A DNA stretch of 64,000 nt from Ricordea florida (taxonomy: Eukaryota > Cnidaria > Anthozoa > Corallimorpharia > Ricordeidae): NCBI GenBank assembly GCA_949710005.1, contig OX453272.1, positions 26,468,630 through 26,532,629 on the forward strand, in the 5' to 3' direction. Numbering within the stretch: position 1 is the first letter of the stretch; every line of letters begins with the position of its first letter. The position numbers and the translations under genes are program-made. The notes under the pieces are model-generated. The model had not been told where the DNA came from. It made no database searches and saw only the letters and a program-made list of their open reading frames with translations. This document shows, in pieces, positions 1,633 through 12,444 of the stretch.

Positions 1633-1640
1633 ATCATATA
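1633..1640. repeat. Target-site duplication, left copy (ATCATATA)
   Basis: Eight bases directly outside the left terminus of the foldback element, identical in direct orientation to 12437-12444. The same octamer also occurs inside both terminal inverted repeats, 20 bp from the end. Confidence 0.85.
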
Positions 1641-1704
1641 GGTAGGTACGTGGTGTAAGCATCATATAGTGGTTCCCCGTTAGTAAATATATAACATACA
1701 TTGC
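1641..1704 (+). repeat. Terminal inverted repeat, left, unique part
   Basis: The non-satellite outer part of the left arm. Its first 47 bases match the right end exactly in inverted orientation. After that come small differences (TATATAACATAC here, ATATATGGCATAC on the other side) before the first satellite units. Confidence 0.85.
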
Positions 1705-3467
1705 TCTCCATAGCCATACACAGCCATACATAGCCCTACATAGCCCTACATAGCCCTACATAGCCATACATAGCCATACATAGCCATACATAGCCCTATA
1801 TAGCCCTACATAGCCCTACATAACCATATAAAGCCCTACACAGCCATACATAGCGCTACATAGCCATACATAGACCTACATAGGCACACACAGCCATACA
1901 TAGCCATACATAGCCCTACATAGCCCTACATAGGCTACATAGGCATACATAGCCATACATAGCCCTACATAGCCCTACATAGCCATACATAGCCATACAT
2001 AGCCCTACATAGGCACACACAGCCATACATAGCCCTACATAGCCCTACATAGCCCTACATAGCCATACATAGCCATACATAGCCCTACATAGGCACACAC
2101 AGCCATACATAGCCCTACATAGCCCTACATAGCCCTACATAGGCTACATAGGCATACATAGCCATACATAGCCCTACATAGCCCTACATAGCCATACATA
2201 GGCCTACATAGGCATATATAGGCATACATAGGCATACATAGCCATATATGGCCATACATGGCCCTACATAGGCCTATATAGCCCTACATAGCCATACATA
2301 GCCCTACATAGACATACACAGCCATACAGAGCAATACATAGCCATACACAGCCGTATATAGCCCTACATAGCCCTACATAGGCCTACATAGGCATACATA
2401 GGCATATATAGCCATACATAGCCATACATAGCCATACATAGCCATACATAGCCCTAGATAGCCCTACATAACCATACACAGCCATACATAGCCCTACATA
2501 GCCCTACATAGCCATACATAGCCATACATAGCCATACATAGCCCTATATAGCCCTACATAGCCCTACATAACCATATAAAGCCCTACACAGCCATACATA
2601 GCGCTACATAGCCATACATAGACCTACATAGGCACACACAGCCATACATAGCCATACATAGCCCTACATAGCCCTACATAGGCTACATAGGCATACATAG
2701 CCATACATAGCCCTACATAGCCCTACATAGCCATACATAGCCATACATAGCCCTACATAGGCACACACAGCCATACATAGCCCTACATAGCCCTACATAG
2801 CCCTACATAGGCTACATAGGCATACATAGCCATACATAGCCCTACATAGCCCTACATAGCCCTACATAGGCCTACATAGGCATATATAGGCATACATAGG
2901 CATACATAGCCATATATGGCCATACATGGCCCTACATAGGCCTATATAGCCCTACATAGCCATACATAGCCCTACATAGACATACACAGCCATACAGAGC
3001 AATACATAGCCATACACAGCCGTATATAGCCCTACATAGCCCTACATAGGCCTACATAGGCATACATAGGCATATATAGCCATACATAGCCATACATAGC
3101 CATACATAGCCATACATAGCCCTAGATAGCCCTACATAACCATACACAGCCATACATAGCCCTACATAGCCCTACACAGCCATATATAACCATACATAGC
3201 CCTACACAGCCATACATAGCCCTACATAGCCGTACATAGCCCTACATCGGCATACACAGCCATACGTAGCCCTACATAGCCCTACGTAGGCATACATAGG
3301 CATACATAGCCATACATAGTCCTACATAGCCCTACATAGGCCTACATAGGCATATATAGGCATACATAGCCATACACAGCCCTTAAATAGCCATACATAG
3401 CCCTATATAGGCCTACATAGGCCTACATAGCCCTACTAGGCCTACATAGGCCTACATAGCCCTACAT
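1705..3467. repeat. 10-bp satellite, outer part of left arm
   Basis: A tandem array of a 10-bp unit, consensus CATAGCCMTA (M = A or C), with variants such as CATAGGCATA, CACAGCCATA and CATAGGCCTA. A higher-order duplication is visible: the variant series beginning near 1741, marked by TAACCATATAAAG and then GCGCTACA, recurs about 750 bp later near 2491. The second copy is slightly shorter. Because three units make 30 bp, the array gives long meaningless open frames on both strands. Confidence 0.95.
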
Positions 3468-5081
3468 GGATGGATGGATGGATGGAATCTTTTATTTATA
3501 CACGAAATCTTATCAAATTAAACATACAGGTTTAAATTTGGTTTCCATAAAATCCGTGAACTAACTAATTAATACAATACTAAAAATATGTACTTAAACT
3601 TAACAATTTACAAGGCGATCTTTAACTAATTACTTTACAAGTGCCGGTAGTAAACCTCTTTTAAACTTTTCCAAAGACCTCTCTTCTTTGGGGTAGCGAG
3701 GGAGAGCATTCCAGACCTTGACGCCACTGAAAGCAAAACTATTCTTATAGTAATTTGTTCGGCATTTGGGCAGTTCTAGGTCGTAATTAGAAGATCTCAG
3801 ACCGTAATTGTTTAAGGCGTTATTAAAAGTGAACATTTCGGTAAGGTATGGAGGTGCCAAGCCGTTAACAATTTTAAACATCATAATGGCCTTGTGAAAT
3901 TGTCTCATGGAATTTAACTGAGTCCAGCCTAATTCCTCAAAAATCATTTCAGAAGGCTTACTATAAGCAGCACCAGTAACAATACGAGCCGCCCTATTTT
4001 GAAGCCTTTGAAGACTATTACTTAATGTGTCACCTATTGAGTCCCAGACAAGACAACAATAACTGAAATAAGGCTCAATAATTGACCTATATAAAGTATC
4101 GATGTTCTCACTATTTAGAAAAGGTTTAACCTTTTTCAGTATTCGTAAGTTGGAAGACACTTTTTGCTTTACACTTTGCAAGTGACCTTCCCATGTCAGG
4201 TTTTTATCAATATTGACACCTAGGCATTTAGTGGACTCTACTTGCCTAACATCCGTATTAGACAAGGAAAGTTCTATGTTACCATCAAGAGCGGCAATTC
4301 TTTGTGTAGACCCTATTAACATAAAATCTGTCTTTAACAAATTAAGAGTAAGTTTATTGACATTAAGCCAGGCGGCAATTTCATTCAGATCATTACTCAT
4401 TTTATTTTGCAAAACAGGCAGACTGCAACTTTTGAAAGTTAAGTTTGTGTCGTCGGCGAACAATCTCGCTGTTCCGTACCCTAAGCATTTTGGCATATCA
4501 TTAACGTAAATCAAAAACAACAAAGGTCCTAAAATGGACCCTTGAGGTACCCCACAGGAGATTGTCTTAGTAGAAGAAACGACGCCGTTAACACAACACA
4601 CTTGCTGTCTGTCTGCAAGATAAGACTGAAACCAATGTAGAGTAATACCTTCAAAACCATAAAATTCTAATTTCTTAAGAAGAATCTTGTGGTCAACGGT
4701 ATCGAAGGCCTTTTTTAGGTCAAGAAATAAGACTCCATTAACCATGCCCCTATCTATATTGAAACACCAATCATTCGTCATGTCAAGTAGGGCAGACACG
4801 GTTGAGTGGAGCGACCTGAACCCCGATTGGCGAGAATAAAGCAATTTATTATTACTAAGGTGACGGTTACTTTGTTCGAAGAGAATTCTTTCAAAAACAC
4901 GAGCAATGCTTCGTAAAACCGGTATAGGTCTATAGTTATTGGCATCGCATTTTTCGCTGGATTTAAAGAGCGGACAGACCTTTGCAACCTTCCAATCGCT
5001 AGGAAATTCACCCGAGGTAATGGAAAAGTTAAAAAAATCAGTTAAGCTCTTGTAAATAACAGGTGCGGCTAATCTCAAAAT
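3468..5081 (-). mobile_element. 5'-truncated CR1/L2-like LINE inserted in the left arm
   Basis: The satellite is interrupted cleanly by about 1.6 kb of unrelated sequence. Read on the minus strand, it starts inside a reverse-transcriptase gene at about 5081 and passes a stop codon at 3630-3632. It then has a short 3' UTR and ends in a (CCAT)n tail at 3468-3485, directly against satellite. A 5' truncation plus a simple-repeat 3' tail is typical of target-primed reverse transcription of CR1/L2-type elements. The target duplication cannot be told from the repetitive flank. Because the reading frame is undamaged, this insertion looks younger than most LINE relics in the window. Confidence 0.9.
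3630..5081 (-). CDS. Reverse transcriptase (C-terminal part of LINE ORF2), open frame
   Basis: An uninterrupted frame encoding the RT domain and C-terminal region of a non-LTR retrotransposon. Visible RT motifs are the block with SDWKVAKVCPLFK, motif A LDLKKAFDTVDH, motif B SCGVPQGSILGPLLFLIYVN, and the catalytic LFADDTNL. The thumb and C-terminal region follow, with YCCLVWDSIGDTL, LQNRAARIVTG and VWNALP. The apurinic-type endonuclease expected upstream is missing by 5' truncation. The open frame extends about 20 codons beyond the element (to 5141) into satellite DNA, creating a chimeric N-terminus (MYRYVGLCKAMYAYVCLC). Those residues are not part of the natural protein. Without a promoter or endonuclease it is unlikely to act alone. 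Confidence 0.85.
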   Translation of the reverse strand: MLRLAAPVIYKSLTDFFNFSITSGEFPSDWKVAKVCPLFKSSEKCDANNYRPIPVLRSIARVFERILFEQSNRHLSNNKLLYSRQSGFRSLHSTVSALLDMTNDWCFNIDRGMVNGVLFLDLKKAFDTVDHKILLKKLEFYGFEGITLHWFQSYLADRQQVCCVNGVVSSTKTISCGVPQGSILGPLLFLIYVNDMPKCLGYGTARLFADDTNLTFKSCSLPVLQNKMSNDLNEIAAWLNVNKLTLNLLKTDFMLIGSTQRIAALDGNIELSLSNTDVRQVESTKCLGVNIDKNLTWEGHLQSVKQKVSSNLRILKKVKPFLNSENIDTLYRSIIEPYFSYCCLVWDSIGDTLSNSLQRLQNRAARIVTGAAYSKPSEMIFEELGWTQLNSMRQFHKAIMMFKIVNGLAPPYLTEMFTFNNALNNYGLRSSNYDLELPKCRTNYYKNSFAFSGVKVWNALPRYPKEERSLEKFKRGLLPALVK

Positions 5082-12200: not shown

Positions 12201-12377
12201 ATAGGGCTATGTATGGCTGTGTATGGCTATGTATGGCTCTGTATGGCTGTGTATGGCTATGTAGGGCTATGTATGGCTATGTAGTGCTATGTATGGCTAT
12301 ATATGGCTATGTATGCCTATGTATGCCTAGGGCTATGTAGGGCTATGTATGGCTGTGTATGGCTATGAAGAGCAATG
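9214..12377. repeat. 10-bp satellite, right arm (reverse orientation)
   Basis: A tandem array of the same 10-bp unit as the left arm but reverse-complemented (TATGTAGGGC / TATGTATGGC). It is about 3.17 kb with few interruptions. Its many open frames (MYGYVGLC-type decapeptide repeats) are by-products of the 10-bp period, not genes. Units alternate irregularly between GGGC, TGGC and TGCC variants. Confidence 0.95.
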
Positions 12378-12436
12378 TATGCCATATATTTTACTAACGG
12401 GGAACCACTATATGATGCTTACACCACGTACCTACC
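12378..12436 (-). repeat. Terminal inverted repeat, right, unique part
   Basis: The mate of 1641-1704 on the other strand. Identity is complete over the outermost 47 bases. Confidence 0.85.
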
Positions 12437-12444
12437 ATCATATA
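12437..12444. repeat. Target-site duplication, right copy (ATCATATA)
   Basis: Direct repeat of 1633-1640, immediately outside the right terminus of the foldback element. Confidence 0.85.

Follow-up and report, generated by a model that had tools for sequence, protein, structure and literature searches.

The 64,000-nucleotide stretch of Ricordea florida DNA analysed here, hereafter the window, contains between positions 1633 and 12444 two arrays of a 10-bp satellite in opposite orientation, which raises the question of what kind of element carries them, what moves it and how its arms arose. Because its termini occur in pairs, its insertions are flanked by duplications, its arrays are opposed and a related empty site exists, we hold with considerable confidence that it is a non-autonomous cut-and-paste (TIR-type) foldback transposon with a MITE partner, a reading that includes its proposed mobilisation in trans, the independent change of its arms and the derivation of the MITE.

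The element in the window is a single unit. It is bounded by an exact 8-bp target-site duplication (TSD), ATCATATA, at 1633-1640 and 12437-12444, and 47 identical inverted bases start at 1641 and, on the reverse strand, at 12436. The left terminus (1641-1708, forward strand) consists of this 47-bp perfect TIR and a subterminal segment common to other copies and to a 104-bp MITE, and the right terminus (12364-12436, reverse strand) is its inverted copy. Between them lie the left satellite arm on the forward strand, in an outer (1709-3464) and an inner portion (5080-6608), a 2.6-kb centre (6609-9208) and the right arm in the opposite orientation (9209-12363, reverse strand). Using Tandem Repeats Finder, 10-bp arrays were delimited at 1709-3467 and 5080-6610, with units CATAGCCATA and ATAGCCCTAC, and at 9217-12367, with 315.6 copies of the oppositely oriented unit GCTATGTATG. 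We were thus able to confirm the structure claimed by the sequence-only reading, namely 47-bp inverted termini, an exact 8-bp duplication and opposed 10-bp arrays. The left arm is interrupted at about 3465-5079 by a LINE fragment on the reverse strand, foreign to the element, with a 503-aa open frame that is reverse transcriptase-like by eye. An Rfam search of the window at gathering scores found nothing.

If this is a transposon its terminus should recur in inverted pairs, with 8-bp duplications, satellite arms and sites without the element elsewhere, as the same reading had predicted, and the 538-Mb host genome bears this out. A 22-base terminus pattern allowing up to 3 mismatches gave 822 + 697 matches, whereas the reversed pattern gave 0 + 1, and the matches are therefore not due to chance. 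Both ends of the element carry GGTAGGTACGTGG, and the ends of the family are represented by GGTAGGTACGTGGTG and GGTAGGTACGTGGTGTAAGC. An 8-bp TSD was found in 64 of the 65 two-ended insertions examined (55 exact, 9 with one mismatch), a count that leaves out the one-ended loci L023-L028, L044, L045 and L089 as well as L088, where no end was found. By class, this comprises 11 larger or variant copies, including the 120-bp L043 (9 exact, 2 with one mismatch), a first 13 MITEs (12 exact, 1 with one mismatch) and a further 40 MITEs (34 exact, 6 with one mismatch). The foldback-type pairs have it in 10 of 10 cases (8 exact, 2 with one mismatch), the damaged copy C1b apart; this sole exception has a left end without its first bases, and a flank repeat of ~130 bp replaces the TSD. 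Besides the window element, nine more foldback-type copies carry their own TSDs, two of them being neighbours on C3, and L086 is a related empty site in which the joined window flanks run through around one ATCATATA, with the element absent. L089 has both arms and no right TIR in the stretch read, and L088 is a short array with no TIR. The window element is thus one member of a large family that also includes an abundant 104-bp MITE, and paired ends, TSDs, opposed arms and the empty site all support its interpretation as a foldback transposon.

The centre had been claimed to contain no transposase, and this stands: none was recognised in the window's centre, which has no ORF longer than 151 aa and pieces of which are 87-97% like the centres of other copies. 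The L010 centre has no ORF of 130 aa or more, so that a transposase of the element's own was rejected for these two copies. Fourteen stretches were listed for ORFs of at least 130 aa, those outside the Pfam searches being judged by eye. Nine ORFs were searched against Pfam, and Harbinger (DDE_Tnp_4, Myb) and Polinton-like genes were found in a 35.9-kb copy. We rejected these as the element's transposase, since they lie inside insertions nested in that copy's centre, the Harbinger one with a 3-bp CTG duplication and the Polinton-like one with a 6-bp TATACT duplication (by eye). Five ORFs of L009 and L010, together with two database relatives, gave only Pfam matches that fell short of the curated threshold, CXC-like ones and one ice-binding. 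No autonomous copy was found, and a search for the 23-bp end joined to different subterminal DNA yielded only 6 matches, of which at least 1 is a MITE. We propose that a transposase made elsewhere may recognise the common termini of ~45-80 bp and move the whole unit.

What this transposase may be is suggested by the ends. Mobilisation by a Merlin-type (IS1016/IS1595-like) enzyme is a plausible but tentative reading, which we place slightly short of an even chance. Parts of the published account of Merlin (PMC8101967) describe 5'-GG ends, TSDs of 8 or 9 bp and, for some families, tandem repeats inside the element, and the present family's ends start 5'-GG and its TSD is 8 bp, both in agreement with the Merlin rules. 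Judged by sequence features, these ends and TSDs would fit Merlin best, an assignment that is unproven. The host genome has at least 150 places above the PF12762 cut-off (150 scored of 169 candidates), and one of these, L090, has GG ends 2.06 kb apart, an 8-bp TSD, ATATTTTT, and a 309-aa open frame. However, its ends, GGAATGATTTCCGCACAGGT, differ from those of the family and no family ends were seen around L091, these being the 2 of the at least 150 places read for ends, and tblastn with the L090 and L091 proteins as queries revealed no Merlin fragment in the remaining loci read. A fuller scenario, which we think doubtful as a whole, is that a Merlin lineage made foldbacks by growing 10-bp satellites from a subterminal seed, with arms that reached almost 9 kb, also after copies had separated, that moved as a unit and that were guided to ACCGCTGACC by the transposase or a factor. 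An open-access literature search brought up one paper, a plant TE review whose title announces no foldback Merlin, and if the scenario is true this Merlin would, to our knowledge, be the first with a foldback structure and the first to be guided by a motif.

The main alternative, that the mobilising enzyme is not Merlin but of Mutator type (Phantom), as in Tm1, seems to us unlikely yet deserves weight. TSDs of Mutator/Phantom elements are mostly 9 bp (8-11). Tm1 of Meloidogyne shows that a Mutator/Phantom element can be a foldback whose arms repeat a short unit and can have a MITE form: it has a ~14-bp repeated motif in its TIRs, MITE-like members and a known Phantom/Mutator-like transposase (PMC3169594, in part), and Tetris was put in Mutator because of its 8-10-bp TSDs (PMC4079207, in part). 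In the sections of the Tm1 report drawn on here, however, TSDs range over 8-10 and are mostly 9 bp (PMC3169594), unlike the present family, in which all 64 TSD-bearing insertions have 8 bp; the GG start of the family's ends, being a Merlin rule, also counts against Mutator/Phantom. Tm1 differs, too, in its asymmetric 7-bp terminal motifs (PMC3169594). PIF/Harbinger membership was rejected, as it calls for a 3-bp TSD and that of the family is 8 bp. A P-type transposase with a THAP domain was not recognised among the ORFs read.

It is also possible to ask where the element inserts. The motif ACCGCTGACC, which in the window lies in host DNA at 1616-1625 on the reverse strand and reads away from the element (weight matrix and flank inspection), stands beside 16 of the 37 insertions not used for training, where about 1 is expected. 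The weight matrix was built from 24 insertions and the segmental copies L078-L080 were dropped from the test set; this test is not strictly blind, because the 10-bp seed word was chosen after the flanks of both sets had been viewed. With the threshold set lowest the excess shrinks: 21 of 37 insertions have the motif, compared with 8 when it is read inwards as a control and a mean of 7.9 (maximum 15) after shuffling. As a rule the motif occurs on one side only and reads outwards (20 CCGCT against 4 AGCGG, a few insertions having it on both sides), which makes a palindromic target unnecessary, and it most often lies 2-12 bp beyond the TSD. Its core, AGCGG/CCGCT, was first noticed in the earliest insertions and counted afterwards: the 11 larger copies have 10 in 440 bp near the element against 3 in 4,400 far from it, the 13 MITEs 2 in 520 bp near against 7 in 5,200 far, and the other 40 MITEs have 8 in 1,600 bp. 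A bias of insertion towards sites adjacent to ACCGCTGACC is new here, and insertion may proceed via an 8-bp staggered cut that favours sites with the motif read outwards. Two other targets were rejected: aragorn found 0 tRNA genes in 64 rejoined sites (40 of them only ~80 bp long), and a single host repeat family is at odds with flanks that are mostly unrelated by blastn, the exceptions being the C3 neighbour pair, L077-L080 and a few short matches.

The element moves as one unit. C7, C4 and C1b, on three different contigs, have a centre that is 97-98% alike (L010/L021 98.4% over 3,445 bp, L010/L016 98.3% over 2,354 bp, L010/L017 97.3% over 1,092 bp), and since the TSDs of C7 and C4 differ from each other the unit was moved whole. 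Across copies the centres form a mosaic. The arms of these three close copies differ: their corresponding arms, set from centre orientation and shared 40-mers, measure 2.8, 2.9 and 2.85 kb on one side and 1.7, 8.9 and 1.85 kb on the other.

Opposed arrays, as predicted for other copies, were present in 10 of the 11 larger copies measured, L022 being without a left array. The arms had also been described as matched, and in the window copy they are indeed near-equal (left 3.27 kb with the nested LINE left out, right 3.15 kb); this is a coincidence, as most other measured copies have unequal arms (0.6/2.6, 1.7/2.8 and 2.9/8.9 kb), the longest of 8.9 kb holding nearly 900 units, and even arms are no family trait. 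The window element's own two arms share only 3-4% of 40-mers, whereas those of C10 share 19-27%, above their share with any other arm compared, so that arm independence is not universal. If the LINE is set aside, two stretches of the window's left arm, of 326 and 314 bp, are each duplicated exactly and in direct orientation, at spacings of 748 and 668 bp. The arms appear to change length separately, in 10-bp register and also after copies have parted, by segmental duplication and probably by slippage and unequal exchange. Derivation of the 10-bp unit from the TIR core is unsupported (p 0.16-0.74 against shuffled units), and against the longer end the three unit variants gave p 0.04, 0.007 and 0.36, a weak resemblance given six tests in all.

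Arms of short tandem units are known from Drosophila FB foldbacks (10-, 20- and 31-bp units) and sea urchin TU foldbacks (about 15-bp units, 8-bp TSD), and Galileo has CA ends and a 7-bp TSD. Foldbacks that combine repeat arms with a MITE are already known in Tetris, Tm1 and Galileo, and the present family adds a variant. Tetris/DAIBAM of the Drosophila virilis group, as described in parts of PMC4079207, is likewise a foldback with variable-number tandem repeats in its TIRs, a non-coding variable middle, a MITE with common ends, TSDs of 8-10 bp, repeats growing into satellite arrays and, in those parts, no autonomous copy found. By description only, it differs in its unit (~220 bp against 10 bp), its TIRs (at most 1.7 kb, where arrays here reach 8.9 kb in one arm) and its number of complete copies, three (PMC4079207) as compared with the ten foldback-type pairs read here, one of which has only one array. 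Galileo, of the P superfamily, resembles the family in that tandem repeats inside its long TIRs expand independently at each end and contain transposase binding sites, and differs in its TIRs of up to about 1.26 kb, ~210-bp unit and P-type transposase (PMC3573991 and PMC3688188, both in part). The Tm1 authors, in the portion of their report used here, saw no target preference (PMC3169594), and ACCGCTGACC offers a handle on how a foldback element selects sites. One genome holds a series that runs from the 104-bp MITE, which has roughly one and a half satellite units, to foldbacks with nearly 900 units in one arm, with relationships readable from the centres; the birth of a satellite inside a moving element can therefore be followed stepwise, and the two arms of a foldback can be seen changing independently.

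The 104-bp form is the commonest among the matches listed, 86 of 100 (of 1,519) making 43 pairs at that spacing. Its consensus matches the foldback end over the initial 81 bp and then continues with 23 bp of inverted TIR, and it is short, non-coding, present in many copies and flanked by a TSD in each of the 53 examined, as expected of a MITE. These 53 were chosen for their 104-bp spacing, and 31 are identical to the consensus, a proportion that leans to young copies because 40 of the 53 were drawn from a list of exact termini. The satellite begins directly inside the terminus, at the place where the MITE has some one and a half of its units. The MITE consists of the same left end fused to the final 23 bp of the opposite one; the simplest account would be that it derives from the foldback by internal deletion and became the abundant form. 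That its left end is near-identical to both foldback ends would also suit a composite, in which two opposed MITEs lie on either side of host DNA rich in satellite, the pair being either mobile or simply in place; this is very improbable, given that in the copies read the end passes straight into satellite with the inner 23-bp MITE end absent, that it is the pair as a whole which the 8-bp duplication flanks and that the same centre travels with the arms to different sites. Long inverted satellite arrays are difficult to assemble and segmental copies do exist, yet an assembly or segmental-duplication artefact is scarcely credible because of the independent copies elsewhere, nine more with their own TSDs, mostly unrelated flanks and unequal arms, and the related empty site. 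The foldback transposon with its MITE partner is thus retained. Four MITEs at C1:45.889-45.895 Mb have a common TSD and flank and are therefore segmental copies of one another, and in the 120-bp L043 a short stretch at the seed of the satellite is, by eye, duplicated.

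Re-measurement bears out the 10.8-kb foldback unit that the sequence-only reading had described, with its 47-base inverted identity, flanking duplication and opposed 10-bp arrays. The inverted ends are identical across 47 bases, starting at 1641 and 12436, and ATCATATA stands on both flanks as the target site duplication (TSD). The left array (1709-3467 and 5080-6610) runs in one orientation and is interrupted by a nested LINE fragment, the right array (9217-12367) runs in the opposite one, and between them lies a 2.6-kb centre without an open reading frame (ORF) longer than 151 aa. 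The LINE fragment (3465-5079) adjoins an ATGG repeat, and its insertion is probably young because a 503-aa frame is still open.

The window element belongs to a family. Searching 538 Mb on 48 contigs with the 22-base terminus at up to three mismatches gave 822 + 697 matches, against 0 + 1 for a backwards-read control pattern. Among the 100 of these matches listed, 43 pairs (86 places) have the spacing of the 104-bp miniature with the same ends (MITE); subtracting 3 already in the first set leaves 40 further MITEs, whose common length is a consequence of selection by spacing. All 40 have an 8-bp TSD (34 exact, 6 with one mismatch), as have the first 13 MITEs (12 exact, one with one mismatch) and the ten foldback-type pairs together with one 120-bp MITE variant (nine exact, two with one mismatch). 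The paired termini and 8-bp duplications foreseen for other copies are thus present at 64 of 65 two-ended insertions, a count leaving out loci that show one end only in the fetched stretch; the sole exception is C1b, a damaged copy. A site lacking the element was likewise found, as a paralogous host sequence in another stretch of the genome (L086) that spans the joined window flanks uninterrupted (97% across 69 bp of left flank, 93% across 106 bp of right flank), with a single ATCATATA and no difference around it. C1b is inserted in a neighbouring copy of this type of host sequence, its right junction 2 bp off the window insertion point. Its left end has lost the first bases at a GTAC microhomology (L086 4600-5001 and L021 8155-8300), and a ~130-bp direct repeat of host DNA flanks it in place of the 8-bp duplication.

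The ten foldback-type pairs plus C1b make eleven larger copies with measured arrays. In ten of them the expected satellite arms are present, forward on the left and reverse on the right; the other, L022, has a right array only. The window arrays, at 3.27 kb left and 3.15 kb right, are indeed matched in length as first claimed, but this does not hold as a general feature. Their evenness is accidental, because arm lengths vary widely among the other copies (left/right): 3.2/2.1 kb in C10, 1.7/2.8 kb in C7, 1.75/0.19 kb in C1 at 32.8 Mb, 0.64/2.6 kb in C11, 2.9/8.9 kb in C4, 4.05/3.04 kb and 1.8/1.1 kb in two C3 neighbours, 0/0.73 kb in L022, 0.05/0.28 kb in L042 and 1.85/2.85 kb in C1b. The window arms have 3-4% of 40-mers in common, no more than with the arms of other copies, and no exact match between them is longer than 58 bp; C10 is exceptional, with 19-27% of 40-mers common to its two arms. 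Full copy length ranges from 0.49 to 35.9 kb, the maximum being owed to nested insertions. This 35.9-kb copy (C11:16.329-16.365 Mb, L012-L015) holds a nested Harbinger element, which has a 3-bp duplication CTG and contains a LINE-like stretch, and a nested Polinton-like element with a 6-bp duplication TATACT and weak rve and A32-like ATPase matches.

Comparison of centres shows that the foldback element moves whole, as a unit. Pieces of the window centre recur in other copies at 87-97%, and C7, C4 and C1b, on three contigs, have a near-identical centre (97-98%), C7 and C4 each with its own TSD. In these three, in that order, the arms that correspond measure 2.8, 2.9 and 2.85 kb at one end of the centre and 1.7, 8.9 and 1.85 kb at the opposite end, so one arm kept its length and the other changed about fivefold. 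The window left arm contains two exact duplications, one of 326 bp at a spacing of 748 bp and one of 314 bp at 668 bp, which suggest that it grew by segments. A CXC-like Cys-rich ORF lies, whole or in part, in the centres of four copies (L009:4797-5738, where it has 314 aa; L045:3573-4505; L089:4561-4927; L024:8628-8681); seven related proteins turned up, their clusters having up to 156 members, and it would be either a captured gene piece or a remnant of a lost autonomous element. Past the left arm of a one-end-only copy, L026:6528-9901 carries two ORFs, one for a PIF1-type helicase and one OB-fold-like and scoring slightly under its cut-off; together they are perhaps a nested Helitron.

In the MITE consensus, the opening 81 bp are those of the foldback end and include roughly one and a half units of the satellite (CATAGCCATACAC); the remaining 23 bp are the terminus in inverted orientation. 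Most simply, the MITE would have arisen by deletion from an ancestor with both ends. Identity to the consensus is seen in 31 of 53 MITEs, a figure biased to young copies by the 40 drawn from the exact-terminus list. The 120-bp variant (L043) has, by eye, a short duplication at the satellite seed. Four copies at C1:45888780-45895226 (L077-L080) have identical TSDs (one with a mismatch) and the same flanks, and so go back to a single insertion that was amplified locally with its surroundings.

At many insertions ACCGCTGACC or a near form is read outward from the TSD, mostly on one side. A weight matrix built from 24 insertions was run on 37 others, a test that is not blind because the seed word was picked after viewing both sets: at a score of at least 8 it finds 16/37 against 1 in the inward-reading control (200 shuffles: mean 1.0, maximum 5), at 6 it finds 19/37 against 3 (mean 3.2, maximum 9) and at 4, 21/37 against 8 (mean 7.9, maximum 15). 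The score-6 matches total 21, of which 17 begin at +2 to +12. For the core AGCGG/CCGCT, which had been counted before the matrix was applied, the 40 further MITEs have 8 occurrences in the 1,600 bp next to their TSDs, compared with 10 in 9,600 bp of more distant flank around the first 24 insertions; for the first 13 MITEs, however, the figures are only 2 in 520 bp near and 7 in 5,200 bp far. Insertion flanks are otherwise mostly unrelated to each other, and no tRNA genes were found at insertion sites. We know of no comparable target rule for foldback elements.

The family's transposase was not found in this analysis. That Merlin mobilises it is a serious if tentative possibility: the GG-starting termini and 8-bp TSDs agree with the Merlin rule as given in PMC8101967, and Merlin genes are plentiful in the host genome (at least 150 places). 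Of two such places read, one is a Merlin-type element (L090:124-2185) with a 309-aa open frame; its ends start with GG and it is flanked by an 8-bp TSD, but its termini differ from those of the foldback family. Mobilisation by Mutator/Phantom, the home of the foldback Tm1 of Meloidogyne and the assignment of Tetris too, is a somewhat less likely possibility.

Repeat-armed foldbacks as such are known. Foldback arms made of tandem repeats have already been shown in Tetris/DAIBAM (Drosophila virilis group), Tm1 and Galileo; taken together, these systems also provide examples of MITE partners, of arms of unequal length and of a family lacking an autonomous copy. What differs here is the 10-bp unit, an arm of up to 8.9 kb and the target motif. 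To judge from titles and abstract openings, the open-access literature searched, a scope outside which two classic foldback papers and probably others lie, gave no element with such arms.

Elsewhere in the window are a 30-bp repeat array (21416-23313; 1.9 kb, 72% matches) and a separate 10-bp array of ATAGTAACAA (32753-32969), neither unit resembling that of the foldback element. By eye, 34652-36025 and 54453-55481 hold two C2H2 zinc-finger array genes or gene pieces with HTGEKPYKC repeats, and ORFs at 46334-47221 and 58012-61761 resemble a GIY-YIG-bearing (Penelope-like) element and LTR retrotransposon gag/pol pieces.
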